Source: Blautia sp.
Lineage (GTDB): Bacteria; Bacillota; Clostridia; Lachnospirales; Lachnospiraceae
Reading direction: 5' to 3'
DNA length: 49,064 bases
NCBI GenBank assembly: GCA_017515325.1
Contig: JAFWGA010000053.1
Coordinates: 1-49,064 of the forward strand
Shown here: positions 22 through 19,886 of the stretch, one piece after another
Layout of the letters: the number at the start of each line of letters is the position of its first letter
Numbering within the stretch: position 1 is the stretch's first letter
Translations under genes and position numbers: made by a program
The notes under the pieces: model-generated
Told to the model about the DNA's origin: nothing
Seen by the model: only the letters and a program-made list of their open reading frames with translations
Databases searched by the model: none

Positions 22-56
22 ATATATTCTGAATTATCTGTTAATTCGGAATATAT
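22..56. repeat. 15-bp inverted repeat at the left edge
   Basis: Positions 22-36 and 42-56 are inverted copies with a single G.T pair and a 5-nt loop. The element lies downstream of the recombinase relic, which is read on the minus strand. No T-run follows in that direction, so it is a weak candidate for a terminator; it could equally be part of an element end. Confidence 0.55.
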
Positions 57-1425: not shown

Positions 1426-1436
1426 GCTGTGCCTCC

Positions 1437-2183
1437 TCAGAGCAGAATGAAGTCAGGCTCCTGTGCCGGTCGCCTGCGCCTCGCGGAGTAGAATGCCGCC
1501 CTCTGCTCTTCCGTGCGGAATGCCGAATCGCCTGAGAGGTTCTTCAGCAGTTCCGCCCTCGCCCCCGCATAAGCCTCTCCCGTCATGCCCAGGGAATTGA
1601 GCCACACGCGGAAACTGTACTTCTCGTTGGTGACCGCCGGGGCTTTGCCTTTTATCCAGCGGTTTGTCACGGCGGCATGGACGATTCGCTCCGCCAGTAT
1701 GCGGCAGGCGGCGGTATCAGGGAACCCCGGAAACGCGATCCATCCGTTTCCGAGTGCCAGTCCCTTTATGGCGCTTTGCCCTCCGTAGCCGTGAAGGATG
1801 GCCATGAACTCCGTCATCGCAGTGGGCTTTATGGTCTTCAGTTCCTTCACCAGTTCGGCGTTCATGTGAAAGGCGTTCGGGATGCCGATGGCCTTGTTGA
1901 TGAGCTGTCCTCTGGCGGCGAGGCTGTTTACGATGTTCGTCATCGTCTGGCCGGTGAAGTCGGTGGCATCGAAGGAAATGCCGCCCAGGGTATTGCCCGT
2001 CCGATCGATCAGCCCCAGCCCCGCCAGTCTGTCCAGCATGGCGGCGTCCGCCTTCCCATCAGAAACAGTGAAAGGCGGGCAGCTCCTATCGCTTGGGGCT
2101 GCCTGTTTCTGTTTCGAGGATAATACAAAACCGTGATATATGGTTAAAAAATCTTGACCGAAGTAAAGCCTGCGTGGTATCAT
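1437..2183 (-). pseudogene. Conjugative-element 'virulence-related' protein, 5'-truncated
   Basis: From about position 2100 to the stop at 1437 the protein resembles a family often annotated 'virulence-related protein' beside recombinases in clostridial conjugative elements. Features recalled for the family are the stretch TGQTMTNIVNSLA, an LHGYGG segment, and the C-terminal NEKYSFRVWLNSLGM with a GDSAFRT end. The function of the family is unknown. The first 25-30 residues (MIPRRLYFGQ onward) do not look like the family and overlap the promoter of the restriction operon running the other way, so the original start was probably lost at the junction. The stop lies 11 bases upstream of the recombinase start, as expected for an operon. 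Family assignment is from memory and moderate. Confidence 0.5.
2154..2183 (+). promoter_or_regulatory. Promoter of the type I R-M operon
   Basis: TTGACC (2154-2159), an 18-bp spacer and TATCAT (2178-2183) form a sigma-A-like promoter about 50 bp upstream of the HTH gene. It overlaps the presumed junction with the conjugative-element fragment. Confidence 0.5.
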
Positions 2184-2706: not shown

Positions 2707-2730
2707 AACAATACTCGGAGGCACACCGTT

Positions 2731-5481: not shown

Positions 5482-6613
5482 ACATCCAAAGATACGATTC
5501 CGGCAGTATACATCCGATTGGGAACAGCGTAAGTTTTCTGATGTTGTCGATATCGGTAGCGGAATGGATTATAAACATCTTGGTGAAGGGGATATTCCTG
5601 TTTATGGAACTGGCGGATATATGCTTAGCGTAGATGTTGCTCTTTCGGAAGATAAAGATGCTATCGGAATAGGACGAAAAGGTACTATCGATAAACCATA
5701 TATTTTGAGAGCACCATTTTGGACTGTAGACACGCTATTTTACTGTATTCCCAAGGATGGATATGATTTAGATTTTACCAGCTGTCTTTTTCAAAATGTT
5801 GATTGGAAGAAAAAGGATGAATCAACTGGAGTACCAAGTCTCTCGAAGGTGATTATAAATAATGTTGAGACGGCGGCTCCTTCATATGAGGAACAGAGAA
5901 AAATCGGTGATTACTTTAAAGGAATCGATAACCTTATCACCCTTCATCAGCGTAAACTGGCAAAGTATAAAGAGACTCGAACATGTTTACTTCAGAAAAT
6001 GTTTTGCACCAGTTCTTCATCCAAACCTGACATTCATTTTTCTGAGTATACAGCGCAATGGGAAAAAATACCTCTGAGCAGGGTTTTGACTCCCTATACC
6101 GACTACCTTCCGACCCCCACCGATGGCTACACCCGCCTTGGCATTCGTAGCCACATGAAAGGGACCTTCTACGAGTACGTTGCGCCCAGCAAGCAGCTGG
6201 GGGAAAAGCGGCTCCAGCGCGTGAAGCGGGATAACTTCATCGTTAATATTGTCTTTGCCTGGGAGCACGCCATTGCCGTCACCACTGAAGAGGATGAAGG
6301 GAAACTGGTCTCCCACCGTTTCCCGCAGTTCAGCTTCACTGAAGGAATGTATCCTCGATTCTTCCACTACGCCCTTAATGATGAACGGTTCCGCCATCAC
6401 CTTTGGCTCGCTTCTCCCAGTGGCGCAGGGCGAAACAAGACTCTGCGCATTGACGAGATGATGGAATATGAACTCCGCGTTCCAGGATATGAAGAGCAAA
6501 AGAAAATCGCGGATTTCCTGACATCGCTTGATGAGCTTATCGAACTCTATGATTACCGCATCACGAAGTTGCAGAACATCAAGGCCGCCTGCCTGCAGGG
6601 AATGTTCGTATAG
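5474..6613 (+). CDS. hsdS: Type I R-M specificity subunit HsdS
   Basis: HsdS sets the DNA sequence recognised by the complex. The 379-residue protein has the classic two-fold layout. Target-recognition domain 1 (~10-145) is followed by a conserved helix (EEQRKIGDYFKGIDNLI, then LLQKMF, ~146-185). Target-recognition domain 2 (~195-335) is followed by the matching helix (EEQKKIADFLTSLDELI, then CLQGMF, ~340-378). It starts inside the end of hsdM with GGGAGGAG just upstream, and hsdR follows 12 bases after its stop. The first half is clearly AT-richer than the second, suggesting that TRD1 was acquired separately. The recognition sequence cannot be read from the protein. Confidence 0.95.
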   Translation: MNKHPKIRFRQYTSDWEQRKFSDVVDIGSGMDYKHLGEGDIPVYGTGGYMLSVDVALSEDKDAIGIGRKGTIDKPYILRAPFWTVDTLFYCIPKDGYDLDFTSCLFQNVDWKKKDESTGVPSLSKVIINNVETAAPSYEEQRKIGDYFKGIDNLITLHQRKLAKYKETRTCLLQKMFCTSSSSKPDIHFSEYTAQWEKIPLSRVLTPYTDYLPTPTDGYTRLGIRSHMKGTFYEYVAPSKQLGEKRLQRVKRDNFIVNIVFAWEHAIAVTTEEDEGKLVSHRFPQFSFTEGMYPRFFHYALNDERFRHHLWLASPSGAGRNKTLRIDEMMEYELRVPGYEEQKKIADFLTSLDELIELYDYRITKLQNIKAACLQGMFV

Positions 6614-6625
6614 GAGGGATTCCCC

Positions 6626-9600
6626 ATGACATACGAAACCGAGAAAGAATTTGAGAAGGTAGTCATAGCACAGCTTATCGAGGGTGGCTGGAAATCTGAG
6701 GTCATCCGCTATCCAACGGAGGAAGAGCTCGTCCAGAACTGGGCGAATATTCTCTTTGAAAACAACCGTGGGCGGGACCAGCTGAATGGCTGCCCGCTCA
6801 CCAAGGGCGAAATGGATCAGATCATTGAACAGATTATTGCCCTGCGCACACCCCTGAAGCTGAATGACTTCATCAACGGGAAAAGCGTATCCATCCGCCG
6901 TGATAGCCCGGATGATCAGGAACACTTTGGTCAGGAAATCAGCCTGAAGATTTATGATCGTCAGGAAATTGCAAATGGGCAAAGCCGGTATCAAATTGTC
7001 CAGCAGCCAAAATTCAAAACGCGGGCTGTTCTTAACGACCGGCGTGGCGATTTGATGCTGCTGATCAACGGCATGCCCGTCATCCACATAGAATTAAAAC
7101 GGAGCGGCGTCTCCGTCAGCCGCGCATACAACCAGATAGAGAAGTATGCCCACGAAGGCGTATTCACCGGCCTCTTCTCGCTGATTCAGGTTTTCGTGGC
7201 TATGGAGCCGGAAGAAACCGTGTACTTCGCCAACCCCGGCCCCGATGGTGAATTCAACAAAGCATTCTATTTCCACTGGGCAAACTTTGACAATGAACCG
7301 ATTAACGACTGGAAACAGGTCGTGTCCGAGCTTCTCAATATCCCTATGGCGCACACCCTGATCGGCTTTTACACAATTCCCGATGCCAAGGACAACACGC
7401 TCAAGGTCATGAGGAGCTATCAGTATTATGCCGCGACCAGAATTGCCGACCGGGTCACAGCTAAGGATTGGGCAGATACCGACATCCTTGGAGGACATAT
7501 CTGGCACACTACCGGTTCCGGGAAAACCCTGACCAGCTTCAAATCCGCTACGCTTATAGCCAGCTGTCATGATGCCGACAAGGTTGTTTTTCTCGTAGAT
7601 CGGAAGGCTCTCGGCCGGCAGTCGTTTGACGATTTCACGGCTTTTGCAGGGCCGTCAGAGGTCATTCAGGCTACAGAGGACAGCACTGAGCTTGCGGCCA
7701 AGCTGAAAAGCGATTCTACCCAGGATACGCTGATTGTCACCTCAATTCAGAAACTCAGTAATGTCACGAAGGATGATGCAAATATCCGTGCTGCGGATTT
7801 GCAGAAAATTCTCTCGAAGCGGATCGTCATTATCATAGACGAGGCGCACCGTTCCACTTTCGGAGAAATGCTCTCCAACATCAAGACTACCTTTAACCAC
7901 TCCCTGATTTTTGGCTTTACCGGTACGCCGATTCAGGACGCGAACAAAAAGAAAGACAATACTACGACCACAGTTTTTGGTAGCGAGCTGCACAGATACA
8001 CCCTCGCTGATGGCATCCGCGATAAAAACGTGCTTGGCTTCGACCCTTACATGGTATTAATCTATAAGGACGGAGACGTCAGGCAAAAAGTCGCTCTTAT
8101 GAAAGCTCGGGCCGACAAGGTCGAAGATGTCTTCAAGACCAAGAAGCAGGAAAAAATCTACTATCACTACATGGATGCCACCAAAGTGAAAATGGTGGGG
8201 GAAATGCGCGGAGGCAAGTACATCAAAGGCATAGAAGATTTCGTGCCCAACTCACAGTACGAAGAACTCAGCTACCGTAAGGCGGTGCTTCAGGACATCC
8301 TGGACAACTGGATTAGCCTGAGCCACAACGGCCTGTTCCATGCGATTTTTGCGACATCAAGCATCCCGGAGGCTGTGGCGTATTATAGGCTTCTCCGGAG
8401 CATGGCACCGCAGATGAACATAACGGGTGTCTTCGACCCGGCCATTGATGACAATGGTGGAAAGTCGCTGGACAAGGAAGACGGCATTGTTGAGATGCTT
8501 GAGGACTATGAGCGCATGTTTGGCCAGCCATTTTCCATGTCTGGCTATGACCAGTTCCGAGAGGATGTACAACTGCGCCTTGCGCACAAGAAGCACTATA
8601 ACCATATTGGGCCTGACGAGCAGATTAACATCTTGATTGTTGTAAACCAGATGCTGACCGGCTTTGATTCCAAATGGATCAATACTCTGTACATGGACAA
8701 GGTCATGGATTATGAAAACCTGATTCAGGCCTTCTCCCGTACCAACAGGCTCTATGGTGACGAGAAGCCATTCGGAATCATAAAGTACTACCGCCGCCCT
8801 CACACGATGGCGAGGAACATTGAGGAAGCGGTACGAGCCTATTCTGGGGATATACCCATCGGTCTGTTTGTTGACAAACTGCCGGGGAACCTGAGAAAGA
8901 TGAACCGCCTGTTCGCTGAGATTTCTGACATCTTCAAAAATACTGGAGTCGAGAACTTCGAGCGACTGCCGGATGAAAAGGCAGCCGTAGGCAAATTTGC
9001 AAAGCAGTTTAAGAAACTGAATCAGACCATTGAGGCCGCCACAATTCAGGGCTTCAGCTGGCAGAAGGACCGCTATAGTGAAGTGTTGGAGGACGGCACA
9101 GAGAATTTTATCCACGTGGATTTTGACGAGCCGACGTACCTTGCGCTTCTCCACCGCTATAAGGAGCTTTCCACCGGAGAAGGCGGAGGTTTTGGCGGTG
9201 ACCCGCCCTTCGAAATTGACACGCATATCACCGAAATAAGGACTGACGCCATCGACGCTGACTATATGAATTCCCGCTTCGATAAGTTCTATAAGCTGTG
9301 GGAGCAGGGCGGCTACGATCAGGAAACCTTCGATAACACGCTTGCGGCCCTCCACAAGTCATTTGGTATGCTCAGCCCGGAAGAGCAGAAATACGCCAAC
9401 CTGTTTATTCGCGACATTCAGTCTGGAGACATACTGGTTGATCCGAATAAGTCCTTCCGGGATTATATCTCCGAGTATATGCGTCGTGAAGAAGATTCCC
9501 GCATCGCCCGCATGGTCCGACGGCTTGGCTGCTATGCGGACAAGTTAAGGGAATTCCTCGACCGCAAGGTCACGGAGGCAAACTACAATGACGGGAACCG

Positions 9601-10606
9601 CTTTAGTGAATTAGTGGCGAGCGTGGATCGAGATAAAGCCAGGGTCTTCTTTATAGCTGTGGAGAAGCAGAACTACAAGGAATTCCGGCTCGGAATGCTC
9701 ATCCACAATTATCTGAAGCACTTTATCCTCACCGGCGGTAAAGACTTATACGACGATGTTGCTGAACCCGTAGCGGGAAGTAATACTGCTACTGAAGGAA
9801 ACGAGACCACCCGCAGGTCGAATAGTCAGGGCGGTTCCACTGACGGCCATATTATAATTGACGGTGTACAGTACAGCACTTCCCACTCAGTCAAAAGAAA
9901 GAACTTTACGACTTGGTATTCCAACAGTGGGAAGAAAAACGCTGTCGCCTGCATGATGGATACTGGCTGCTTTGCTTATTTGGAGGAGAAGGTCTGTCTA
10001 AATCAGGAACTGTATGTTCAGCGCGGTGCTGACAGCAAAATGCATCTTACCGAGTATGCCCGTTCTCATGAGGATGAATGCTTTTTGCAATTTGTTACTG
10101 ACGATGATGGCATTCTACATTATGTCGTGCTGCCGAAAAAGCTGGCTGACAAAAAATTCGAATACTCGAAGTTTATTTCCGAGGATATACTCAAGAAGTA
10201 TGGACTTGTATGTGAGATGGCGCGGCTGATGCTTGAGGCGATTGAACACATGGAATTCGGCCCTGCGTTTAAGAAACTCATGAGCAAGGGAATCTGCAAT
10301 TACACAGTGGGGTCCTTATACACTACCACCGGGCTGGACAATCATACCATCTCAAATCTCCGCAGTGGCAAAAATCTAACAAACCTCAACGTGGTCTCCG
10401 CTCTTCTTGGCATTCAGGTACCATATCCTGTAAGTGAGGCAATGCTGAAGTTAGCCAACATCTCGTTCCCTACAGACCGAGGCCCGGACAGTAATAAGAT
10501 GTATGTAATGCTACTCAGCACCAGATGGGCCGCCCCATACTATGAAATATATGAAGATCTCGAATCTGAAGGTATGCAGGATTTGATAAAGCAACCGCCA
10601 ATCTAA
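6626..10606 (+). CDS. hsdR: Type I restriction endonuclease subunit HsdR, with C-terminal extension
   Basis: HsdR is the ATP-driven translocase and nuclease of the complex. In order: an N-terminal PD-(D/E)xK nuclease domain (GDLMLLINGM then HIELKRSG, ~140-160); SF2 motor with Walker A HTTGSGKT (~294), DEAH box IIDEAHRS (~405) and motif III FTGTPI (~432); second RecA fold around LTGFDSKWI and QAFSRTNR; and a helical region to ~1045. The 1326-residue length exceeds the usual ~1000-1050. After a Ser/Thr/Gly-rich linker (~1055-1075) there are about 250 extra residues, including an HTH-like stretch (TVGSLYTTTGLDNHTISNLR, ~1225-1245). The gene ends 20 bases before a strong terminator. It is the last gene of the operon. 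Confidence 0.95.
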   Translation: MTYETEKEFEKVVIAQLIEGGWKSEVIRYPTEEELVQNWANILFENNRGRDQLNGCPLTKGEMDQIIEQIIALRTPLKLNDFINGKSVSIRRDSPDDQEHFGQEISLKIYDRQEIANGQSRYQIVQQPKFKTRAVLNDRRGDLMLLINGMPVIHIELKRSGVSVSRAYNQIEKYAHEGVFTGLFSLIQVFVAMEPEETVYFANPGPDGEFNKAFYFHWANFDNEPINDWKQVVSELLNIPMAHTLIGFYTIPDAKDNTLKVMRSYQYYAATRIADRVTAKDWADTDILGGHIWHTTGSGKTLTSFKSATLIASCHDADKVVFLVDRKALGRQSFDDFTAFAGPSEVIQATEDSTELAAKLKSDSTQDTLIVTSIQKLSNVTKDDANIRAADLQKILSKRIVIIIDEAHRSTFGEMLSNIKTTFNHSLIFGFTGTPIQDANKKKDNTTTTVFGSELHRYTLADGIRDKNVLGFDPYMVLIYKDGDVRQKVALMKARADKVEDVFKTKKQEKIYYHYMDATKVKMVGEMRGGKYIKGIEDFVPNSQYEELSYRKAVLQDILDNWISLSHNGLFHAIFATSSIPEAVAYYRLLRSMAPQMNITGVFDPAIDDNGGKSLDKEDGIVEMLEDYERMFGQPFSMSGYDQFREDVQLRLAHKKHYNHIGPDEQINILIVVNQMLTGFDSKWINTLYMDKVMDYENLIQAFSRTNRLYGDEKPFGIIKYYRRPHTMARNIEEAVRAYSGDIPIGLFVDKLPGNLRKMNRLFAEISDIFKNTGVENFERLPDEKAAVGKFAKQFKKLNQTIEAATIQGFSWQKDRYSEVLEDGTENFIHVDFDEPTYLALLHRYKELSTGEGGGFGGDPPFEIDTHITEIRTDAIDADYMNSRFDKFYKLWEQGGYDQETFDNTLAALHKSFGMLSPEEQKYANLFIRDIQSGDILVDPNKSFRDYISEYMRREEDSRIARMVRRLGCYADKLREFLDRKVTEANYNDGNRFSELVASVDRDKARVFFIAVEKQNYKEFRLGMLIHNYLKHFILTGGKDLYDDVAEPVAGSNTATEGNETTRRSNSQGGSTDGHIIIDGVQYSTSHSVKRKNFTTWYSNSGKKNAVACMMDTGCFAYLEEKVCLNQELYVQRGADSKMHLTEYARSHEDECFLQFVTDDDGILHYVVLPKKLADKKFEYSKFISEDILKKYGLVCEMARLMLEAIEHMEFGPAFKKLMSKGICNYTVGSLYTTTGLDNHTISNLRSGKNLTNLNVVSALLGIQVPYPVSEAMLKLANISFPTDRGPDSNKMYVMLLSTRWAAPYYEIYEDLESEGMQDLIKQPPI

Positions 10607-10625
10607 CCATATATAACCGCCGATA

Positions 10626-10658
10626 GGCCAGACGAAAGTCTGGTCTATTTTTTTTTTG
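10626..10658 (+). terminator. Intrinsic terminator of the R-M operon
   Basis: An 8-bp stem (GGCCAGAC with GTCTGGTC, GAAA loop) is followed after two bases by a run of about ten T. It lies 20 bases past the hsdR stop. Confidence 0.9.
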
Positions 10659-10683
10659 CCAAAAATTTTTTTTTGCCGTATTG

Positions 10684-11020
10684 AACTTTCTTCAACAGAA
10701 AGTTGCTATCCGCTCCGCTGAAGAGCTTGGAAAGCCTTATTTCTCCATTGTACTTTGTACAATGCGGTTCAAATTCTAATGGAATATTATGTACTTGTTT
10801 TTAAGAACAAGTTCGGCAAAACGCCTTGTTTTTCTCTTTATAAGAGTAGGGAGGCGCATCTGTCCGGCTGACGAGTCGGAAGATAGCTGAACTGCAACAC
10901 CATCACTCACAAAGGGCGGCGGGTCCGGATTCCCAAAGCGCGTAAGGCCGATGTGGGTGATAACAGCAAAAGCCAGCGTCCTTGCGCGGCTGGCCACTAC
11001 CGATAACGAACGGAGTGGCC
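10684..11020. other. Structured non-coding stretch with several hairpins
   Basis: No convincing gene lies between hsdR and the next start at 11089. Visible inverted repeats are: AACTTTC/GAAAGTT at 10684-10704; a perfect 8-bp stem CATTGTAC/GTACAATG with a TTT loop at 10746-10764; ACTTGTT/AACAAGT at 10793-10812; and GGCCACT/AGTGGCC at 10992-11020. The last can compete with a second pairing between CGAACGGAGTGGCC (from 11007) and GACCGCTCCGTTCT (from about 11051), just ahead of the downstream gene. This looks like a regulatory leader from a mobile element, with attenuator-like alternatives. Function is inferred only. Confidence 0.45.
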
Positions 11021-11088
11021 GATATGAAGAAACTGAACATTGCCATTGGAGACCGCTCCGTTCTGTGCGAACAGAAAGGAGCCCAACG

Positions 11089-11760
11089 ATGGCTAAGAAA
11101 ACCGCAGTCAATTTCAGCAATTACGACTTCAACGAGAACCCTGACAACTACACCTACGAGGAGATTACGACAATCCGCCGCATGACCGCCGCCGGTGAGC
11201 CGATTTACCTGGCTCCCATCGAGGTCGAGCATCGTGAAAATCTGGAAGCCCTTCACGTCACCTACGCCGAATGCAAAACCTGGCATATCGGCTCGGAGCC
11301 TGTCTGCGTCCATCTGACGCCCGCCAATGCGGAAATCTATGACCTGCTCTTGGGCGACCTCCGCGCAAAGCATCGTGACGGCGTCCGCAAGAGCAGGTGC
11401 ATGGTCATCGGCAAACGCGGCAAACCAATCCGCTGCGACGAGCGGAACAAGTGCCGGGAATGCCCGTTTGGAAGGAAGCCGGAGGACAGGGAGCATCAGG
11501 TGGTTTCCTGGAACGAGATGGTGGATAAGGGGTACGACCCCGCCGCCCATGACAGTACATCCGAGCCCGCCCTGAACAGGATCACCTATCAGGAAATCCG
11601 GGCTGAGTGGAACGCCGTCGACCCGCGCCTCACCAGGGCGTTCGAGATGTCCGAATCGGGATACGATATCAAGGATATCATGAAAGAACTGAACTTGTCC
11701 CAGCGCCGGGTCTACCAGCTGATTGAGAAGGCCAAGGAAATGGCGAAACAGGGCCACTAA
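11089..11760 (+). CDS. Conjugative-element-type HTH protein (sigma-region-4-like)
   Basis: The start at 11089 is chosen because AGAAAGGAG lies 8 bases upstream and the upstream in-frame codons look non-coding. The 223-residue product opens MAKKTAVNFS and has a Cys cluster (CDERNKCRECPFG, ~118-130). It ends in a helix-turn-helix (SGYDIKDIMKELNLSQRRVY, ~185-205) reminiscent of sigma region 4 or MarR-like helices. Proteins opening this way are common in clostridial conjugative and mobilizable elements, where their role is not established. It has a good terminator downstream and marks the right flank of the island. No partner transfer genes are present. Confidence 0.65.
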   Translation: MAKKTAVNFSNYDFNENPDNYTYEEITTIRRMTAAGEPIYLAPIEVEHRENLEALHVTYAECKTWHIGSEPVCVHLTPANAEIYDLLLGDLRAKHRDGVRKSRCMVIGKRGKPIRCDERNKCRECPFGRKPEDREHQVVSWNEMVDKGYDPAAHDSTSEPALNRITYQEIRAEWNAVDPRLTRAFEMSESGYDIKDIMKELNLSQRRVYQLIEKAKEMAKQGH

Positions 11761-11768
11761 GACAGCGC

Positions 11769-11801
11769 AGCCCCGGAGGCTTCATGCCTCTGGGGCTTTT
11801 T
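11769..11801 (+). terminator. Intrinsic terminator after the HTH gene
   Basis: AGCCCCGGAGGC pairs with GCCTCTGGGGCT (one mismatch, TTCAT loop), followed by five T. It begins 8 bases after the stop at 11760. Confidence 0.9.
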
Positions 11802-11884
11802 ACGCAGTCTTTGGCGATATACGCATAGAATGGCATTATACGCAATTATGGCTAAAGGCAAAAACGCAATATTGCGCAAAATGA

Positions 11885-12313
11885 ATGGTGGATGGATATG
11901 AGGCTGATTTGGCTACTGAGAGAGGTATTGCAACAAGATTAGAAACTCACAGCCGAGCAAATTATCCCGGCTCGAAGGCAGTGTTGGTTGCGATTGCGAT
12001 TCCGGTTTTCACAACCCAGTTAGAGAAGAGCCGTGAGGCTACCGATCTTGCAAACCTGCGTAGCGCATACGCCGAGAAAATGACAGAGATTCTGACTTGG
12101 GACGGCAAGACTGCTATCACAGCCACCAAGGTTACCGCCAAGCAGACACAGGCTAACTGGCAGAGTGATGGTAACGCAACTTCTACCAAAATTGCTGATG
12201 GCCTTGATGGTGCAGGAATTGACGTTCCGCAGTCTACTAAGGGTTGGGATATCACTGTAAGCAATCCTACGGATGGCAGTGCTCCCGCAATCACAATATC
12301 TGCTAAATCTTAA
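11885..12313 (+). pseudogene. Headless type IV pilin copy (possible silent pilin cassette)
   Basis: From about 11979 the frame encodes the distal part of a type IV pilin (AVLVAIAIPVF, then QLEKSREATDLAN) closely matching the intact pilin on the opposite strand. A 24-bp block at 12023-12046 is identical to the reverse complement of 12762-12785. The prepilin leader and the first ~16 mature residues (GFTLAELL and following) are missing; the upstream ~30 codons (MVDGYEADLA on) do not resemble a pilin, so the protein could not be processed or assembled as it stands. The C-terminal half differs strongly from the intact pilin but keeps KQTQA.WQ and ends at a proper stop. This is the layout of a silent variant cassette, by analogy with Neisseria pilS; a plain decayed duplicate is the alternative. 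Confidence 0.7.
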
Positions 12314-12328
12314 GATAACGTAGTTATC

Positions 12329-12364
12329 GCCACCCCTCCTCTCCGGGAAAGGGAGTAGGGTGGC
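12329..12364 (+). terminator. Imperfect hairpin after the pilin copy
   Basis: GCCACCC (12329-12335) pairs with GGGTGGC (12358-12364) with partial pairing inside. It starts 16 bases past the stop of the headless pilin copy. There is no T-run, so termination would rely on the tandem hairpins that follow. Confidence 0.4.
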
Positions 12365-12366
12365 AA

Positions 12367-12404
12367 GCAAAGGCCCTGTCCAAGCATGCGGACAGGGCCT
12401 TTGC
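12367..12404. terminator. Perfect 15-bp hairpin between convergent pilin copies
   Basis: Positions 12367-12381 pair perfectly with 12390-12404 around the loop AAGCATGC. With the next hairpin it separates the two convergent pilin reading frames and probably serves as a terminator for one or both. Confidence 0.8.
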
Positions 12405-12407
12405 TAT

Positions 12408-12447
12408 AAAGAATGGCACCCTCGCATGCTTGAGGGTGCCATTCTTT
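12408..12447. terminator. Perfect 16-bp hairpin, loop complementary to its neighbour's loop
   Basis: Positions 12408-12423 pair perfectly with 12432-12447 around the loop GCATGCTT, the exact reverse complement of the previous loop. On the plus strand the stem ends in TTCTTTT. On the minus strand it begins about 40 bases after the stop of the major pilin gene and ends in TTCTTTAT. Confidence 0.8.
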
Positions 12448-12485
12448 TAGGTTCTTGGGCCTTCCCGGGGACCCAGAATATGCTA

Positions 12486-12896
12486 TTACGGAGTAGTTGT
12501 GATGAAGCTGGAATCAACCTTTGTTCCACCAATGGTAATTTCACCAGTTCCATCAGTACCAGCAGTATACTTAATTTCGATTTTTTTGCCCTTGGCAACA
12601 TCCCAAAGATCCGCAGTAATATCGATGCCAGCAATGTTAGCACCAGTGGTCTGCCACTTTGCCTGAGTCTGCTTCAAATCCACGCTTGCCGTAATGGTAT
12701 TGTCGGGATCAGTAATAGAAGCAGCAGCAACTTCAGCATAAGCGCCACGGATGTTAGCCATATCGGTAGCCTCACGGCTCTTCTCCAACTGCGCTGTGAA
12801 CACGGGAATAGCTATGGCGGTCAATACAGCAATAATCGCAACAACGATCAGCAACTCAGCAAGGGTAAAGCCTTTCTTATTATTCATTTTCTTCAT
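12486..12896 (-). CDS. pilA: Major type IV prepilin
   Basis: This encodes the structural subunit of the pilus. Starting at 12896 the leader is MKKMNNKKG, cut by PilD before phenylalanine. The mature N-terminus FTLAELLIVVAIIAVLTAI has the conserved Glu5 and the hydrophobic helix ending in IPVF. The mature part is about 127 residues, small for a pilin and without a Cys pair. AAAGG sits about 12 bases upstream of this ATG; an ATG four codons earlier overlaps the ribosome site and one three codons later is also possible. It is the last gene of the locus, separated from pilO by a 180-base structured gap that may carry its own promoter. An inverted partial copy lies downstream, past two hairpins. 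Confidence 0.93.
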   Translation of the reverse strand: MKKMNNKKGFTLAELLIVVAIIAVLTAIAIPVFTAQLEKSREATDMANIRGAYAEVAAASITDPDNTITASVDLKQTQAKWQTTGANIAGIDITADLWDVAKGKKIEIKYTAGTDGTGEITIGGTKVDSSFITTTP

Positions 12897-12908
12897 ATTA
12901 TGTATCAT

Positions 12909-13078
12909 CCTTTCTACATGTAGTTGTCAGCCTTAGGCGGCTGAAGAACCTTTTCTTACCCTGGGTTCCTCTCGGCCGAATGCCGCCCACGGCTATTAGG
13001 CCAAACAGGTACATAATCTATCTCACAGGCTGCCGGGAACAGCCGGAAGATCGGTAATAAAAAATTACTATCATGAAT
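12909..13078 (-). promoter_or_regulatory. Structured leader between pilO and pilA
   Basis: Read on the minus strand it holds GGCTG..CAGCC (near 13030-13046), a GC-rich block around 12970-13000 (GCGGCATTCGGCCG) and TCAGCC..GGCTGA (near 12927-12944). It does not fit the c-di-GMP-I, c-di-GMP-II or other riboswitch cores that I can recall. It may stabilise or regulate the abundant pilin mRNA. The GC block resembles one in the malQ leader. Confidence 0.35.
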
Positions 13079-13663
13079 CTATTTTACTTCGGCAGAGTCC
13101 AAAGGAAGGGCAGCATCCGGTGTGCCTCCTACCATGGTTTCATAGAAGGTGGCCGTAGTATTGATTGTTACTCCCTTTTCTTTATCCATGCTGCAGCGAA
13201 TGTCCCCCACCAGACAACGATATTTTCCATTGCTCAGACGCGCCATCACTCTGCGAGCCTCATCGTAGTTCCTTGTCTGAAACTGCAGGGTGAAATTCCG
13301 GCGGATCTGATTTCCGCTTCTGGATACATCCGCAAAGGTAATGGTATATACTATGGTATCAGCCAGGATCTCATTCAGGAAAGCCACCTCCGCTTTGCTG
13401 CTGTTGTAGCTTGGCATATAGGTCAACTCCCCGGACTCCTCCATCTCCGTCAGATTGTCACGGATACCCCTAAGCTGCATAATCCTGATCTCCAGCATAT
13501 CCATCTCACTTTGAATCAAAGCATTATCGGCTTCGGCTGAAGTAATGGCATCCCGAACCGGAATATCAATAAAGCGATAATAAAAAAGTCCGATAAGGAT
13601 CAAAGCCAAAAAGGTAAGGAGAAGTTTTTCAGAATTCTTAAATTCCCTGCTCATGAACCTCAT
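13079..13663 (-). CDS. pilO: PilO-like type IV pilus inner-membrane protein
   Basis: A 194-residue bitopic protein. There is a short cytoplasmic N-terminus and one transmembrane helix (LLLTFLALILIGLFYYRF, ~14-31). A coiled coil follows (ITSAEADNALIQSEMDMLEIRIMQL is its core, ~40-65), then an alpha/beta domain (~85-190). This is the PilO plan: a dimer partner of PilN that aligns the machinery. Its start overlaps the end of the upstream pilN-like gene by 4 bases (ATGA), so translation is coupled. Sequence similarity to textbook PilO is not obvious; the call rests on topology and on the gene order pilM-pilN-pilO. Confidence 0.75.
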   Translation of the reverse strand: MRFMSREFKNSEKLLLTFLALILIGLFYYRFIDIPVRDAITSAEADNALIQSEMDMLEIRIMQLRGIRDNLTEMEESGELTYMPSYNSSKAEVAFLNEILADTIVYTITFADVSRSGNQIRRNFTLQFQTRNYDEARRVMARLSNGKYRCLVGDIRCSMDKEKGVTINTTATFYETMVGGTPDAALPLDSAEVK

Positions 13664-14283
13664 GGCTCTTCTCCCTCCTCTTCCTCCGGAGGCTGCTGAA
13701 GATAAATGATAAATTTCCCTCTGACGCCAGCGGAAGCCTTTTTCTCATCATTTTTGGTGACATTCATAATCGTGCAGCTGTCAACGATATCCTCCTGCTC
13801 GATCTTTCTTGCCAACTTGTTCAGCTTGGTCAGAGAACTGCCGGTCATCTCCAGGGTCAGGACATTACCGGTCAATACCCAGGTTCCATCTGCCATACCA
13901 TTGCGGAGGACATTTCCCGCCAAGGCTAAAATCTTAGTCCTGTCCACTCGGGAGAGCTCCTCCCGGGTCATACCATCACGGGTATAATGGGCATATTCCT
14001 CCTCCACCCCACCGTACTCCTTCAAGAGACTGTACAACCTCTCCAAATCCGCTTTCTTCTGGCCTGCCAAAGACTCTGCCTGGGACATGGCTGTCAAGCG
14101 GTCAACCACCAGATATTTGCTGAAGACTCCAGCTATAACTACAATTGCGATAATTCCTATCACCGCTTTGGGGATACTCAGCTTTTTTTCATCCGCCAAC
14201 ACCAAATTGATGGATCGCTTTGTCGGAAGCTTTCCCCGGAAATTCTTTTTCCCTCTCTTTCTTTTTGCTGCCTGAACAGCCAT
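13660..14283 (-). CDS. pilN: PilN-like type IV pilus inner-membrane protein
   Basis: A 207-residue bitopic protein. The basic cytoplasmic head (~1-35) contains TKRSINLVLADE, in the position where PilN has its INLLP motif for PilM binding. A transmembrane helix (AVIGIIAIVVIAGVFSKYL, ~40-58), a coiled coil (~60-95) and a small extracytoplasmic domain follow. The tail is very acidic and proline-rich (PPEEEEGEEP). It lies 18 bases downstream of pilM and overlaps the pilO-like gene, as in pilMNO operons. Assignment rests on order, topology and the INLV element. Confidence 0.75.
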   Translation of the reverse strand: MAVQAAKRKRGKKNFRGKLPTKRSINLVLADEKKLSIPKAVIGIIAIVVIAGVFSKYLVVDRLTAMSQAESLAGQKKADLERLYSLLKEYGGVEEEYAHYTRDGMTREELSRVDRTKILALAGNVLRNGMADGTWVLTGNVLTLEMTGSSLTKLNKLARKIEQEDIVDSCTIMNVTKNDEKKASAGVRGKFIIYLQQPPEEEEGEEP

Positions 14284-14301
14284 CCGTCATCCCTCCCGCT
14301 T

Positions 14302-15372
14302 CTAGCCCATAGCGATTCCGATTGCCTGAACGAAGGTATTGCATTCCGCAAGCTTTTCTCCTTCAGGAACCAGGTCTTCGGCTCGATGCAGATTAATATC
14401 CAGCATTTCTCCTATAGTCTCAGACAGGGAGGAGATAACGGCTCCACCTCCGCAAAGCCACAGATCAGCCAGGGTACTGTCCCGATTGCTGAAACGGTAG
14501 AAATTCAGCGCCCGCATCAGCTCTACAGCGATATTCTCATAAGCAGCCAGACATTCTGCCCTGGCCTGACAGTTTTCATAATTCGACATCAAATAGGTAT
14601 GCGCCAGATGGACATCCACACTATAGATATCCGAGATCACCCGATCCAGGTTGGAAAGACCGATCTCCAGAACACGGGTGGCCACATGGCGGTCACCGCG
14701 GAACATATACATACGGACAGCTTCGAAGCCCAGATCCAGGATGCCGTATTCTTCAGCTATCTGTGAAAGAGTTTCCTTTTGAGCCCTAATCAGAGAAATG
14801 AAAGCACTGATGGCAGGAGCTGCTACGGCCATACGAAGACCTGCCTGTTGCAAAATCAACTGAGCATCCTCCACTACACTGCGAAGAGCAGCCACCCCCA
14901 TAAGCTCCATCGTCTCAGGCTCTGCCTCATTCTCATTCTCTTCCCGCTCTTTTGCTTCCGGCCAGACAGTATCAAGCCCTGGATTCTTTTGATCCGCTTC
15001 CTCCTGCCCCTCCGGTGTGGAAAGCATAGCATAATCAAAGACGTAATCCTTGATATCCCCAGAAATATAGTCATTAAATTCAAAGGGGAGATTATAGGAT
15101 AACTGCTCCACCGTCATCAAGGGCATCTCTATATTCTTAATAAAAACAGCTTCATTGGGAATGACAATGCAGGCCTGGCTGGCGTGAATGCCACCTTCCT
15201 TCATAGTCTTGCGCAAAAGCTCACTCATGGATTCAATGGAAACAATACGACCTTCCCGCAGAAGGTTCACGGGCATGGCCGCGGATACTGTCTTAATCAC
15301 TCTGTTCTGTTTGACCAAAGCCAGCTTGAGCTGATCCCGCCCAATGTCGATCCCCAAAAAGGTTTTTGCCAT
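14302..15372 (-). CDS. pilM: Type IV pilus assembly ATPase-fold protein PilM
   Basis: An actin/FtsA-fold cytoplasmic protein that binds the PilN N-terminus and couples it to the motor ATPases. The 356-residue length is typical. It opens FLGIDIGRDQLKLALV (phosphate-1 loop of the fold) and has further motifs EYGILDLGFEAVRMY (~225) and LWLCGGGAVISSL (~310). An acidic Glu/Asn-rich insertion at ~130-160 (PEAKEREENENEAEPE) is unusual. It lies between pilD and the pilN-like gene on the same strand. Confidence 0.88.
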   Translation of the reverse strand: MAKTFLGIDIGRDQLKLALVKQNRVIKTVSAAMPVNLLREGRIVSIESMSELLRKTMKEGGIHASQACIVIPNEAVFIKNIEMPLMTVEQLSYNLPFEFNDYISGDIKDYVFDYAMLSTPEGQEEADQKNPGLDTVWPEAKEREENENEAEPETMELMGVAALRSVVEDAQLILQQAGLRMAVAAPAISAFISLIRAQKETLSQIAEEYGILDLGFEAVRMYMFRGDRHVATRVLEIGLSNLDRVISDIYSVDVHLAHTYLMSNYENCQARAECLAAYENIAVELMRALNFYRFSNRDSTLADLWLCGGGAVISSLSETIGEMLDINLHRAEDLVPEGEKLAECNTFVQAIGIAMG

Positions 15373-15506
15373 TTTATTTTCCGCCTGTCTGCTGATTTCT
15401 TCCCAACTGTTCAGTCCACTGTTACATCACAGCTACATTTCCGGGTCTCTTCCGGAATGGGTCATACTCCTGTCAGGCTCAGCCGGGCTTTGCCTGAAAT
15501 AGTCCG

Positions 15507-16295
15507 TCATCGCAAAAAGCTCATATACCAGTTCACCAGTGGCTCCCCATACAGGAGCATGACAGCCGTCCCTAAAGCAATCCAAGGACCGAAGGGAAAT
15601 TCCTTCCCTCCGTGCTTTTTGCCCAGTCCATAATAGAACAGACCGGCCACACAGGCAAACATGAGGGCAAATAAGGTAGCCACAAAGCCCAGATAAAGGC
15701 CAACGACAGCAAAGAGCTTAATATCGCCGCCTCCAAGGGTATCCCGCTGCAGCATATGATCCATCAAAAGAGAAATCCCCAGTAAGCTTCCTCCAAAAAC
15801 CACAGCTGCCGCTACATGAAGCAGAATGTCCCTCCCTGTCAAATCAAGGAAAGGACAAAACAGCAGCCAGACAAGAGCAGCCAGGATGAGACACCCATCC
15901 GGAATCACCATAGCATCCAGATCTGTCAGAGTAAGCACGAAAAGGCAACACAGAAAAAGATAATTCCGAAAGCAAAGAGGGGTCAGATCAAATCGGAGAA
16001 GACAGACCACCGTAAGCAAAGAAAAACCCAGCTCCGTCAAAGGATAACGGGCAGAAACCTTCTCCTTACACCATCGGCATCTTCCCTTGAGAAAAACCCA
16101 GCTCAGTACCGGAACCAGCTCTGCGGCTCCCAGCACATGCCCACAGTGGGGGCATTGGCTTCTCCCTGTGATAAAGGACTCGCCCCTACCCAATCTCCAG
16201 GCGGCACAATTGAGAAAAGAACCCATAATCGCACCAAAAACAGAAGCAAGGATCAGGAAGAAAAAAAGTATGGTCTTATCATCATAGATAGACAT
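15507..16295 (-). CDS. pilD: Prepilin peptidase / N-methyltransferase
   Basis: A polytopic membrane aspartyl protease that cleaves prepilins after the leader glycine and methylates the new N-terminus. At 262 residues it shows the zinc-binding pair CPHCG and CRWCK (~48-75) of the methyltransferase domain. The two catalytic aspartates lie in TLTDLDAMVIPD (~125-136) and GGGDIKL (~190). About seven hydrophobic segments are visible. It has a strong promoter of its own upstream (16336-16364), so pilD to pilA may form a separate transcription unit. A 134-base gap separates it from pilM. Confidence 0.95.
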   Translation of the reverse strand: MSIYDDKTILFFFLILASVFGAIMGSFLNCAAWRLGRGESFITGRSQCPHCGHVLGAAELVPVLSWVFLKGRCRWCKEKVSARYPLTELGFSLLTVVCLLRFDLTPLCFRNYLFLCCLFVLTLTDLDAMVIPDGCLILAALVWLLFCPFLDLTGRDILLHVAAAVVFGGSLLGISLLMDHMLQRDTLGGGDIKLFAVVGLYLGFVATLFALMFACVAGLFYYGLGKKHGGKEFPFGPWIALGTAVMLLYGEPLVNWYMSFLR

Positions 16296-16335
16296 TCATC
16301 CCTCCATCTTTTATTGGGTATACTTATCTATCATC

Positions 16336-16364
16336 ATATTATCAAAAAAACCCGTAGCTGTCAA
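16336..16364 (-). promoter_or_regulatory. Sigma-A promoter upstream of pilD
   Basis: On the minus strand TTGACA (16364-16359), a 17-bp spacer and TAATAT (16341-16336) form a near-consensus promoter, about 40 bp ahead of the pilD start. A GGAGGG ribosome site follows. Confidence 0.75.
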
Positions 16365-16426
16365 TTGTTATTTATGTATGTTTAGCTAAAAACTATAAAA
16401 GACCCTTTTTCAGCTATTTATCTCTT

Positions 16427-17290
16427 CTACTTTGTATAGGCGCTTCCGGTCCAGCCGTCATCACTGCGCCAGACGGCATATTCCTCTTCATCAGCATAAG
16501 CAAAGTAGCAGATCTCACCTTTTTTCCCCTTGTCAGCAAAGTCTCCCTCTCCTCCCAGGCCAAAAAAGGCAATCACTCCATTATAGCCACTGGTAGTCCT
16601 TGTCCCTCTGCGAATCCAAACCTCTTTCTTTACCCGAATACATTTCAGATCTTTCCCATTGAGAGTAATCATGACAGAATCCGGTTCAGGAACAAACACT
16701 TCTGTGTTTATCTCTGTATCTGAACTCGACTCTGCTGCAGCAGCTTCTGCTTCTTGGTTCTTTTCTGCTCCCTCGTTTTCTCTTTGGGCATTCTCCCGGC
16801 CTTCTAACTCTGCCAGCTCCTGCTCTTCCACCTGATGTTCCGCATCCAGCATAGCCCGACGGCGGGTCTGGATCAGATTTTCCGTCACCAGAGTCATCGC
16901 CCGGGAGGCGTTCAGCCTCGTGCGCTGCTTGAGGTCAGAGCTATGCAGGCCGCAGATGGGCACAAATATTCCATTCTCATCCGGAACCAGATAGACATTT
17001 CCCCCAGCCGGACAAATGCCAGGCCTAGTGACCATGATCTGATCCAGGGACTCTCTTGCCTCTTCCAGGGTCTGGGCATCTCCACCCCGGGAGAGATATT
17101 CAATGATCAGGCCGTCTCCCGCTGATTTGATGGCCTGCTCACAGGCCGTTTTTTCCGAACGGAAACGAAAGCGGTTCCAGGCGGGAACAGCCAGGATCAC
17201 CAGCATGATACCGATCAGGAGTAACAATATAGCCGTGGCACGGTTAACACCGCCCTGCTCTTCCTTTATCTTTCTCTTCCCCTTATTCAT
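16427..17290 (-). CDS. Minor-pilin-like membrane protein
   Basis: Start 17290 is preferred because GGGGG and AGG elements lie just upstream and the earlier in-frame codons look like spacer. The 287-residue protein has a basic head, then EEQGG, then one hydrophobic helix ending in AVPAW (~15-38), as in prepilins. A position-5 glutamate is absent, which would make it unusual as a pilin. Residues ~85-115 hold ICPAGGNVYLVPDENG and PICGLH, matching the CP.GG.Y...C..H signature of pseudopilins and minor pilins. After ~120 there is a Glu/Ala-rich linker and a C-terminal domain of unknown fold. Position between pilC and pilD supports a pilus role, perhaps tip or priming subunit. Confidence 0.6.
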   Translation of the reverse strand: MNKGKRKIKEEQGGVNRATAILLLLIGIMLVILAVPAWNRFRFRSEKTACEQAIKSAGDGLIIEYLSRGGDAQTLEEARESLDQIMVTRPGICPAGGNVYLVPDENGIFVPICGLHSSDLKQRTRLNASRAMTLVTENLIQTRRRAMLDAEHQVEEQELAELEGRENAQRENEGAEKNQEAEAAAAESSSDTEINTEVFVPEPDSVMITLNGKDLKCIRVKKEVWIRRGTRTTSGYNGVIAFFGLGGEGDFADKGKKGEICYFAYADEEEYAVWRSDDGWTGSAYTK

Positions 17291-17374
17291 CCTGGTTCCC
17301 CCATATGAGCCTATTTCATACCTACTCGAGCCAGCAGCCCATGCCTGCTGCAAGCTGCGCAGTTATCCAATTTC

Positions 17375-18595
17375 CTACATTGCAGCGTACATACCGAACA
17401 TGGCCATATAGATGGCAATGACGATATAGCCGGCAAAGCCGGCCAGGAAAACAAGAATGGTAGGCTCCAGCTTGGCCAAGGCCTCAGAGGTTGCCCGTTC
17501 CAGCTCATGGTCGTAATACTCGGCAGTCATGGACAGGGTCTGGGCCAGCTCCCCGCTGTCCTCACCGACAGCCGTCATGTCCACCAGGATATCCGGCAGA
17601 CAGTTGGCTTCACGAAGACATCTGCCCAAGGTATAGCCTTCCTCCAGCCTGCCCGTAATTTTCCCCACTCTGCTGCTGACGTAGTAGTTATCCATGACGC
17701 GGGATGAAATGGCCACTGCCTTGGTCATGGGAAGGCCAGCGTTCAGCATCATGGCCATAGTATTGGCAAACTGGCTGGAAGCGTTTAATACCGCAATCTC
17801 CCCCAGTACCGGCAGCTTCAGCTGCGTCTTTGCCAGATTCAGCCGTCCCGCCTCCGTATTACCATATATTTTATAGAAAAGTCCCAGAAATGCGGCAATC
17901 CCCACTATGGTCAGGATGTTGCTGCGGAAGAAGTCGGAAGCCCAGATCAGGGTCTGCGTAATAAAGGGCAGCTCAGCCTCGTAGGTATCAAAAATAGCCA
18001 TGAAGGTAGGAACCACCTTTACCATCAGGACAATGACTACCACAATGGCTACAACAAGGACGAAGGCAGGATAGATCATCGCCCCTCTCACCTTGTCCTT
18101 TAAGTTAGTCTGTTTGGCATAATGCTGACTGACCGATTCGAAGGAGACATCCAGGCTGCCGGATTCCTCCCCTGCATGGATGGTTTCCAGAAAGGTCGTC
18201 GGCAGCAGCTTCTTTCCCCGGTCCGCAAAGCTGGCGGAAATCGACCGGCCGGCTTCCACATCCTCTGCCACCTGTCCCAGCACCCGCTTCAGGGGTTTGT
18301 CCGTCATCTTCTCATAAATCAGAGCCACTGTCCGGGTGATGGGCACTCCCGCCTTTAAAATGACGGCAAACTGACGGCACATCAGGGTGAAGAGCTTATC
18401 GTCCAGCTTATTGCCACCGATATCCATGCTCAGAAAGGCTGCCGCCTTTCCCTGTTCCTTCACCGGAGCCAGATGTGTCACAATGGCGTAGTTCTCCTTG
18501 ATCTTCGCTGCCGCGTCCATCTCGTTGAAGGCCTCGATTACGCCGGAAACCTTTTTCCCATCCTTTGAGAGGGCAGAATACTTATAGGTAAACAT
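17375..18595 (-). CDS. pilC: Type IV pilus platform protein PilC
   Basis: The inner-membrane platform on which PilB and PilT act. The 406-residue length and two tandem T2SSF domains fit the family: the first at ~65-190 (CRQFAVILKAGVPITRTVAL) and the second at ~270-395 (ANTMAMMLNAGLPMTKAVAI). Three hydrophobic segments lie near 170-195, 220-240 and 375-400. It opens FTYKYSALSKDGKKVSGVI as typical PilC does. It starts 22 bases after the pilT stop. Confidence 0.95.
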   Translation of the reverse strand: MFTYKYSALSKDGKKVSGVIEAFNEMDAAAKIKENYAIVTHLAPVKEQGKAAAFLSMDIGGNKLDDKLFTLMCRQFAVILKAGVPITRTVALIYEKMTDKPLKRVLGQVAEDVEAGRSISASFADRGKKLLPTTFLETIHAGEESGSLDVSFESVSQHYAKQTNLKDKVRGAMIYPAFVLVVAIVVVIVLMVKVVPTFMAIFDTYEAELPFITQTLIWASDFFRSNILTIVGIAAFLGLFYKIYGNTEAGRLNLAKTQLKLPVLGEIAVLNASSQFANTMAMMLNAGLPMTKAVAISSRVMDNYYVSSRVGKITGRLEEGYTLGRCLREANCLPDILVDMTAVGEDSGELAQTLSMTAEYYDHELERATSEALAKLEPTILVFLAGFAGYIVIAIYMAMFGMYAAM

Positions 18596-18617
18596 ACTTG
18601 CCTCCCATCTTTATTGT

Positions 18618-19658
18618 TTAGGAGTTCTTTTTCACGTAATCCGTTTCATGGGCATAATGAAGGGCGGAATCTCTGGTGATCCTGCCAGCCCGAACCAGCT
18701 TCACCAAAGCCTGATCCATGGTCTGTCCGCCCAGGGCAGCACTGGTGGCCACTGCATTGGCAATCTGCGGGGTATTCCCGCTGCGGATCAGGTTCCGGAT
18801 GGCATCCGTCACCACCATCATCTCGCAGGCCAGAACCCGGCCTCCGTCCTTTCCCGGAATCAGCTGCTGCGTCAGGACAGCCTGCAGGCACATGGAAAGC
18901 TGAAGGCGGACCTGGGTCTGCATTCCCTCCGGAAAGACCTGAACAATACGGTCGATGGAATCGGGGGCACTGCCTGTATGCAGAGTCCCGAAAACCAGAT
19001 GTCCGGTCTCTGCCGCTGTGATCGCCGTCTCAATGGTCTCCTTGTCTCTCATCTCACCGATCAGGATGACGTTGGGATCCTCACGAAGGCTGGCCCGCAG
19101 GCCGGAAGCAAAGCTCATGGTGTCCTTGCCAACCTCTCTTTGGTTGATGGCGCACAGATCCGGTTTGTAGATATATTCCACCGGATCCTCCAGCGTGACA
19201 ATATGGCTCTTCCTGGTATGGTTGATGTGGTCCATCATGGCTGCCAGGGTAGTGGATTTACCGGAACCGGTCTCTCCTGTCACCAGCACAATGCCCTTGT
19301 GAAGACTGGTCAGGGGAATAGCTGCCGGAGGAAGGCCAAGGGTATCCAGCCTGGGGATATTGTCGGAAAGAAGACGAAGAGCAACCGACGGCATGCCCTG
19401 CTGCCGGAAAATATGGATACGGCAGCGGATGCCCGCAAAGGTCTGGGCAGCATCCAACTCCCCGGTTCTGTCATACTCCTCATAGGCAGGCCCTGCCAGC
19501 TCCCTGGCATAGAGACAGCAGTCTTCTCCACTGATGGGCTCCTCAGTCATATTTTCCAGCTGGCCGTTCCTGCGGTATTTGGGCGGTAGGCCATAGATCA
19601 GATGAATATCTGACGCACGGTCTGTCCTTGCTTTGACCACTAATTCTTCTATTGTCAT
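18618..19658 (-). CDS. pilT: Type IV pilus retraction ATPase PilT
   Basis: A hexameric AAA-like ATPase that drives pilus retraction. Its 346 residues match the family. It carries Walker A GETGSGKSTT (~127-136), the Asp box VTLEDPVEYIY (~153), Walker B with GEMRDKETIETA (~195), the His box GHLVFGTLHTGSAP (~213-226) and the C-terminal family element around GGQTMDQAL. A GAGG ribosome site lies 8 bases upstream. A 228-base gap separates it from pilB. The presence of PilT implies a dynamic, retractable pilus with possible twitching or DNA uptake. Confidence 0.95.
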   Translation of the reverse strand: MTIEELVVKARTDRASDIHLIYGLPPKYRRNGQLENMTEEPISGEDCCLYARELAGPAYEEYDRTGELDAAQTFAGIRCRIHIFRQQGMPSVALRLLSDNIPRLDTLGLPPAAIPLTSLHKGIVLVTGETGSGKSTTLAAMMDHINHTRKSHIVTLEDPVEYIYKPDLCAINQREVGKDTMSFASGLRASLREDPNVILIGEMRDKETIETAITAAETGHLVFGTLHTGSAPDSIDRIVQVFPEGMQTQVRLQLSMCLQAVLTQQLIPGKDGGRVLACEMMVVTDAIRNLIRSGNTPQIANAVATSAALGGQTMDQALVKLVRAGRITRDSALHYAHETDYVKKNS

Positions 19659-19886
19659 TCTTTTACCTCATCCCCTTTCCAATAAGCGATACAAAGATTT
19701 CGTCGCAGGCTGCTACCGATTATGGTATAAACGCAAAAAAGCGTATCCAACCCTGAAAACACCTGTCCCGTGCTGCCCGACTTTAACCACAACCACCTCG
19801 CGGTGTAATACCGGACATCTCCATTATACTCGTTAGCGGAAATCATTTCCATTAATATAAGTGATGCGACAGCCACATAGCCGTTA
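19659..19886 (-). other. Intergenic gap between pilB and pilT
   Basis: On the minus strand a TATAAT lies at about 19835 with only a weak -35 (TGGAAA, 17 bp upstream), and a short ACGC/GCGT hairpin lies near 19730-19745. An internal promoter for pilT is possible. An 88-codon open frame crossing the gap shows no recognisable features. Confidence 0.3.

Follow-up and report, generated by a model that had tools for sequence, protein, structure and literature searches.

What is a pilin gene without its head doing beside an intact one? The question is raised by a 49,064-nucleotide stretch of a Blautia sp. genome (here the window, which is the whole of contig C66 of genome G000), in which a plus-strand copy that lacks the constant head of the protein lies convergent with a full-length type IV pilin gene. 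We think it likely that the headless copy belongs, as one of its tails, to an attachment-site system in which phages carrying large serine recombinases (LSRs) enter the pilin gene at the junction of head and tail and bring a replacement tail with them.

Two convergent pilin tails and their surroundings

The headless pilin tail (spare or former) occupies 11978..12313 on the plus strand and appears in the open reading frame list as 111 aa running from AVLVAIAIP to the stop. The preliminary description of this DNA had read a headless plus-strand copy from 11885, with pilin sequence from about residue 17 of the mature protein. The copy and its strand hold, as does the normal stop, up to which the tail is open, but pilin similarity starts at 11978, and at mature residue 14 (FTLAELLIVVAII|AVL). 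The preceding 11885-11977 is an open frame of 31 codons of non-pilin DNA that recurs 5' of other headless copies. The convergent full pilin described earlier is likewise present (12486..12908, minus strand); it is the major pilin and presumably the expressed one, with its head above 12830, its tail at 12486-12830, the junction at 12830/12831 and a Pfam N_methyl match in the head (5.2e-09). Between the two tails lie two hairpin terminators (12366..12447, comprising 12366-12405 and 12408-12447), which were found by an inverted-repeat search and belong to a block common to other loci in both polarities.

No Pfam match was obtained for the headless ORF in the profile search of the window's ORFs. 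The window's two tails match each other as protein with an E of 1.3e-16 (tblastn against the genome's own pilin), and the headless copy is homologous to pilin and not a chance resemblance. Their first 32 residues are 84% identical and the remainder agrees at 26/85 aligned positions, which bears out the diverged C-terminus noticed earlier, and the identical 24-bp block noticed with it sits inside inverted arms of 98 nt at 78% identity. Over the 32 conserved codons, the headless tail and its partner show 12 synonymous and 5 replacement differences. With up to two mismatches allowed, the block is found in 12/97 distinct full and 4/23 distinct headless copies (the window's own two counted), and because it is conserved elsewhere in this way it is neither proof of nor a bar to recent exchange. 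No second headless copy was found in the genome (3,308,739 bases in 68 contigs, 87.73% complete). On another of its contigs, three consecutive N_methyl matches (G000:C41:56060-57083), two of them under the Pfam cut-off, are probably minor pilins.

A silent, headless and variable tail recalls the pilE/pilS system of Neisseria, in which many such tails serve RecA gene conversion and no phage is known to be involved, and it was this analogy that had first been proposed for the window. The intact silent tail, the conserved head-proximal block with a variable C-terminus beyond it and the identical 24-bp stretch within a 78% block would all suit a cassette of that kind. We nevertheless hold it to be very improbable here and have given the analogy up. 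Only one copy was found in the 87.73%-complete genome, no guanine-quadruplex motif (four runs of at least three G) occurs in 11001-15000 on either strand, and, as set out below, headless copies share a sharp junction at a fixed codon, with unrelated DNA upstream of it and a motif at a fixed distance, and are linked to a clade of recombinases and to prophages.

Read from the right, the window holds the host type IV pilus operon, the head with its tail, the terminators, the spare tail, an arm that we call P1, an HTH gene, hsdR, hsdS, hsdM, a phage-linked gene, a split LSR of the type designated LSR-a, and the contig end. The operon (13079..21632, minus strand) consists of prepilin peptidase-, PilC-, PilT- and PilB-like ORFs, named by sequence, with homologs beside other headless loci. 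P1 (11845..11977, plus strand) is a conserved non-pilin upstream arm that extends up to the junction, with CTCACA 26 nt before it and GGCAAAAACGCAATATTGCGCAAAATG further 5'; by blastn it is 89% identical to locus L162 over 120 nt, 78% to L168 over 176 nt and 79% to L192 over 85 nt. The adjoining HTH protein (10951..11760, plus strand; an HTH_7 match under the Pfam cut-off) is encoded by DNA that is 89.6% identical to L168, 69% to L153/L233 and 91% to an 82-nt piece in L177, from an Atopobiaceae genome; the gene also stands beside P1 in L168 and near P1 in L153, and survives as a scrap in L177. Next to it are plus-strand type I restriction-modification genes (2731..10606), namely hsdM (2731-5481), hsdS (5474-6613; Pfam Methylase_S, 1.2e-20) and hsdR (6626-10606), of which hsdM and hsdR were named by reading the sequence. 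Both hsdS and hsdR recur at the corresponding end of the L153 prophage, to which window positions 6191-11525 (∼5.4 kb) are 81.6% identical.

At the left end of the window, a minus-strand gene (1437..2183; phrog_2443, 3.5e-23) has homologs, by protein clusters, that adjoin LSRs in L093, L207 and L209. Beside it the split LSR-a comprises, on the same strand, an N-terminal resolvase piece (1063..1425; PF00239, 3.7e-15) and a recombinase plus zinc-ribbon piece (110..955; PF07508, 9e-15; phrog_95 integrase, 1.8e-32). It lies 10.5 kb from P1 and is the only recombinase of LSR kind in the window, where no phage structural genes were recognised; neither LSR-b nor a headless tail at the far side turned up in the genome's own assembly. 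The map of L153 would place LSR-b, together with another headless tail, beyond position 1, off the contig if present. Positions 1-11977 are probably a short derivative of an attachment-site element, now decayed; such decay is suggested by the split of LSR-a, which makes present switching in this strain doubtful.

A fixed junction in headless tails of relatives

The layout of the headless tail recurs beyond the genus of the window. With its own genome included in each count, a pilin match at E 1e-3 was found in 17/64 genomes of the genus and a match to the headless query at 1e-4 in 20/397 genomes of the family, and reading matches individually revealed headless copies with the identical start codon in G049, G413 (two) and G369. 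A scan of named genomes kept 80 loci of 194 relatives and a scan of IMG/VR kept 5. The 25 headless tails compared, which come from rumen and gut Clostridia, one Atopobiaceae genome and IMG/VR contigs, all begin at the [AG]VL codon, mature residue 14. Because the tail pattern requires the AVL block, it would overlook any copy with a start further 3'; BLAST alignments, which have no such anchor, likewise began at that codon for L045.

The count was reached as follows. The head/no-head pattern flagged 23 stretches, from which L189 and L202 (with heads that the pattern had overlooked), L204 (cut at the locus end) and L141 (whose contig starts at the junction) were dropped. L132, L176 and the two of L182 were counted once, as L045, L096 and L093. 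L162 and L192, to which the pattern had been blind, were added, as were L212 and the two of L238. Two copies stand outside the 25, a third and degenerate one in L205 (6602) and the one in L095 at 803 on the minus strand (G421:C32), a headless pilin-like sequence that retains IVVAII and has a different boundary.

The open tail is kept in 22/25 headless copies; L096 is frameshifted, and L192 and L165 5751 run into other sequence. Decay in all relatives, which had been named as the outcome that would count against a functional cassette, is not what was found. The accompanying null was a simple decayed duplicate; the tail, intact and silent, is more than a lone copy of that kind, and its layout recurs in other genera. 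A related account, compatible with an attachment-site origin, makes the spare tail the fossil of an old integration, functionless in this strain. The split LSR-a, the absence of a phage body from the window and the remnant-like appearance of L165, L177 and L180 all speak for it, whereas the intact tail ORF, with its excess of synonymous over replacement differences, and the 22/25 open copies speak against it, and we regard it as possible but on balance doubtful.

The junction itself joins like to unlike. Among the 25 headless copies, the DNA 5' of it falls into 15 unrelated families (defined as blastn clusters; clustering by gapped identity lumped 24/25 upstream sequences and was set aside), of which the P1 family accounts for seven copies, in records that carry differing family labels. 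Across these flanks ACA stands 26-27 nt before the junction in 10/15 upstream families, the best non-neighbour offset reaching 3/15, and the motif is absent from 5/15; a G occupies position -1 in 22/25 copies. On the tail side, TTYACA is present at +31..36 in 23/25 headless versus 22/84 full copies (Fisher 3e-9, for loci that are not independent), and the protein at this stretch is conserved in headless and full copies alike. Such fixed spacing of a motif in unrelated flanks is as would be expected of a recombinase site, and no obvious inverted symmetry was seen between the junction halves. In addition, the first base of the L141 contig coincides with the first base of the junction. This would fit a sample in which one tail had two upstreams and the assembler stopped between them, and it may have other causes.

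None of 219 occurrences of the head motif was an orphan (a count that includes duplicates from overlapping loci); 2/219 failed the continuation pattern yet read on as pilin. Given that no orphan head was met, the head appears always to be re-completed, presumably by the tail of the element. We rejected an element that simply inserts and breaks the pilin on the same lack of any tail-less head.

Several further arrangements of pilin genes were seen in the survey. In locus L094 (5883-6934), two full pilin genes face each other and are nearly identical in head and leader DNA; the second is frameshifted right after the conserved block. The full pilins within L131, and likewise those within L133 (Atopobiaceae), agree closely in the head and diverge widely in the tail. 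A tail of L131 is similar to the headless tail of the window, and tails may cross phyla. On contig G035:C109 (L047), four headed pilin genes lie within 9.9 kb, beside two mutually similar ORFs that we take to be nuclease/transposase-like. Contigs G035:C185, G053:C81, G059:C100 and G052:C68 end in or near a pilin gene, which suggests repeats or mixed alleles in the sample. A tail search of INPHARED returned two records, L235 and L236 (MT836441.1 and MT836257.1), with no headless copy by pattern in either; they are records of a human-faeces phage collection that resemble bacterial chromosome, L235 with a pilus operon and L236 with a full-length pilin.

Linkage to recombinases, phages and host genes

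LSRs, mostly as a tandem pair, lie 9 nt to ∼1.6 kb from a headless tail in L045, L093, L205, L207, L208, L209, L212 and L238. The LSR stop is 9 nt from the junction in L093, and in L045, L205 and L212 other ORFs intervene and the gap is 1.2-1.6 kb. The LSR-b proteins linked to headless tails form one clade without unlinked members in a FastTree phylogeny (drawn without support values). When IMG/VR was scanned with the LSR-b alignment, 80 loci were retained, 79 of them new, and 5/80 bear a headless tail, namely L237, L238, L240 and L241 (4/79 of the new loci) and L208. All five belong to the six loci with 60-61% identity, of which the remaining one (L239) breaks off 6 bp past its LSR. The search by tail had already turned up every one of the five contigs except L238, which alone counts as new evidence, and several of the unlinked or more distant LSR contigs end soon after the gene, so that absence of a tail there is partly uninformative.

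At the level of whole genomes, PF07508 was found in 14/16 genomes or records with headless tails or junction-starting contigs. It had no match in the genomes of L165 and L177, whose pairs are therefore without an LSR there now. LSRs are also present in these genomes away from headless tails, and those of G474 are distant (26% identical to those of L093) and thus not of the linked clade's kind. In L120 (G464:C65), LSR-a- and LSR-b-like pieces lie 3.5 kb from a full pilin, with no headless copy in the stretch examined.

The DNA linked to the tails is viral. On contig G465:C3 (162,490 bases, the contig of L153; map coordinates converted from pieces of the contig), a headless tail at 59.8 kb is followed by LSR-b and LSR-a at 61.0-63.9 kb and by a phage body with tape measure at 76-79 kb, head protease, portal and terminase at 84-88 kb and DNA polymerase at 106-108 kb. 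At its right end are hsd genes at ∼109-117 kb, an HTH gene to 118 kb, headless tails at 118.7 and 118.9 kb and a full pilin at 119.8 kb. About 55 kb with phage genes, all on one contig, lie between the headless tail with its LSR pair and the pilin locus. In G474 the phage genes recognised are the terminase large subunit (5.6e-189) and those for tape measure, DNA polymerase and primase; from its start, the order there is pilC end (named by sequence), full pilin, convergent headless tail, second pilin and then phage. A tail gene was found in G475 and a terminase in G473.

On the far side, genes that elsewhere follow the full pilin were recognised in three loci. In L158 and L180 it is followed by a gene of ∼900 aa, and the same gene follows the full pilin in nine loci (L173, L126, L146, L174, L140, L156, L120, L171 and L169). 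In L212 it is followed by one ORF and then by a pilin-like gene that is 69% identical, over 339 residues, to the one after the full pilin of L142. In these three loci the headless tail sits where the tail of the host's own pilin should be. The genes 3' of the headless tail in L045 (G049) matched no pilin-downstream gene, and for the window the usual pilin-following gene is only 23-30% identical to proteins of its own genome, so that the far end could not be located there. L165, L177 and L180 look like remnants from which most or all of the phage has been lost. Host-like genes, judged by sequence, lie beyond the cassettes of L162, L155 and L165, which indicates that cassettes can exist without a phage.

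Proposed tail exchange and its relation to known systems

Convergent pairs of a headed and a headless tail occur in six loci (the window, L162, L165, L168, L155 and L153), with the two terminators between the tails, T1 and T2, conserved across loci. The terminator nearer to the headed gene is T2 in the window, L162, L165 and L155 and T1 in L153 and L168; 3/12 terminator positions (T2 of L155 and L168, T1 of L153) were read by eye. The occurrence of the pair in both polarities between species suggests inversion, and on the simplest reading head and headless partner would have traded places between lineages in this way. L238 has a convergent pair of headless tails directly after its LSR.

It might be supposed that this is a stand-alone inversion switch of the host, like that of Moraxella Piv or a shufflon, which is not phage-borne and whose site phages adopted later. 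Pairs in six loci, conserved terminators and both polarities are what such a switch would leave, and host-like genes do lie beyond the pair in L162 and L155. We consider it unlikely, however, because the HTH-P1 block recurs, the HTH and hsd genes belong to the prophage end in L153, and neither an IS110/Piv nor a tyrosine recombinase is encoded on the contig of the window. PF01548 (IS110/Piv) matched in 4/16 genomes or records and in G000 only on C56, not C66, and PF00589 (tyrosine recombinase) matched in G000 only on C24, C21, C23 and C36. In the R64/TP114 PilV shufflon, a fixed head/tail junction is combined with alternative C-terminal segments, as here, but in a plasmid minor pilin, by the Rci tyrosine recombinase and short repeats, whereas the present case concerns a major pilin, LSRs and prophages. 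Moraxella pilin inversion involves a convergent headless partner of the expressed pilin, as found in the window and its relatives, but its recombinase Piv is of the IS110 family, of which the window's contig has no member. Inversion of pilin gene segments changes the pilin in Moraxella bovis and Moraxella lacunata (PMC11868660, in the portion available); in the available portion of PMC11208160 Moraxella pilin inversion appears in the reference list only.

Under the attachment-site account that we favor, the target of temperate phages with a tandem LSR pair would be one set position within the major type IV pilin gene, the boundary at which the constant head, made up of the leader and the first 13 residues, gives way to the variable tail. 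The phage's own tail would adjoin its attachment arm, and the host head would then read into it, leaving the pilin changed but not destroyed; the old host tail would stay behind without a head at the far end, that of the LSRs. Several elements would bring a convergent pair (tail, two terminators, and a tail in the opposite direction) followed by arm P1, and recombination between the head/tail and P1/tail junctions would invert the pair and swap the expressed tail. The same LSR reaction of a head/tail site with an arm/tail site would thus yield integration where the sites are direct and inversion where they are convergent. In the window, 12486-12908 would be head plus tail, 11978-12313 the paired spare tail and 1-11977 the element derivative. 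The observations establish the anatomy and its recurrence, the fixed junction, the linkage to phages, the two polarities and, in three loci, the host synteny on the far side; we infer that the LSRs would catalyse both reactions, that the present tail of a lysogen may be phage-derived, and that a swap of tails may alter pilus function (adhesion) or phage sensitivity or entry.

Insertion with a replaced 3' end has precedents in the icd gene of E. coli, where phage 21 integrates in this manner, as does e14, whose integrase is a tyrosine recombinase. Prophage e14 lies inside the coding gene, supplies a replacement 3' end and leaves a partial copy beyond the prophage, with two conservative changes among the 54 C-terminal residues (PMC11148124, in the portion available). 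The likeness lies in a gene kept whole by a supplied 3' end with a left-over partial copy beyond the prophage. Its features are seen here as a prophage between the replaced gene and the left-over end (G465:C3), a left-over end at the host gene (L158, L180 and L212) and a recombinase by the arm (L093, L207-L209, L212, L205, L045 and L238). In contrast to the metabolic enzyme, near-identical ends and tyrosine recombinase of e14/icd, the present gene encodes a surface filament, its tails differ strongly and the recombinases are LSRs. Pneumococcal Int2b phages integrate in the 5' part of comGC, between nt 58 and 59, disrupting the gene and abolishing transformation (PMC7600539), and a Staphylococcus prophage breaks comGA (PMC7029219; both in the portions available). 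The former resemble the proposed system in that a major pilin gene is entered, within its 5' part, by a prophage, and differ from it in that they disrupt comGC, a replacement tail not being mentioned in the available part of that paper (PMC7600539).

Among the literature matches listed (open-licence papers, by title and abstract opening), there was no report of a prophage replacing pilin tails. It is a more tentative suggestion, for which we would claim slightly less than an even chance, that a family of temperate phages of gut Firmicutes (and perhaps of Coriobacteriia) integrates in the major type IV pilin gene, rewrites the pilus's exposed half as it does so and carries an invertible pair of tails by which the lysogen can switch between two pilus faces, plausibly against rival pilus-binding phages or to change adhesion. 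A single attachment site would then combine lysogenic conversion with phase variation. Lysogenic conversion usually means that a gene is gained. If the account given here is true, a phage would instead edit the exposed C-terminal half of its host's main surface filament through its insertion point, without disruption, and might retain a switchable spare tail. It yields recombination sites and an LSR pair that are open to a plasmid assay, it offers an explanation for pilin tails common to different families, and it predicts that some of the variation among pili of rumen and gut Clostridia is driven by phages.
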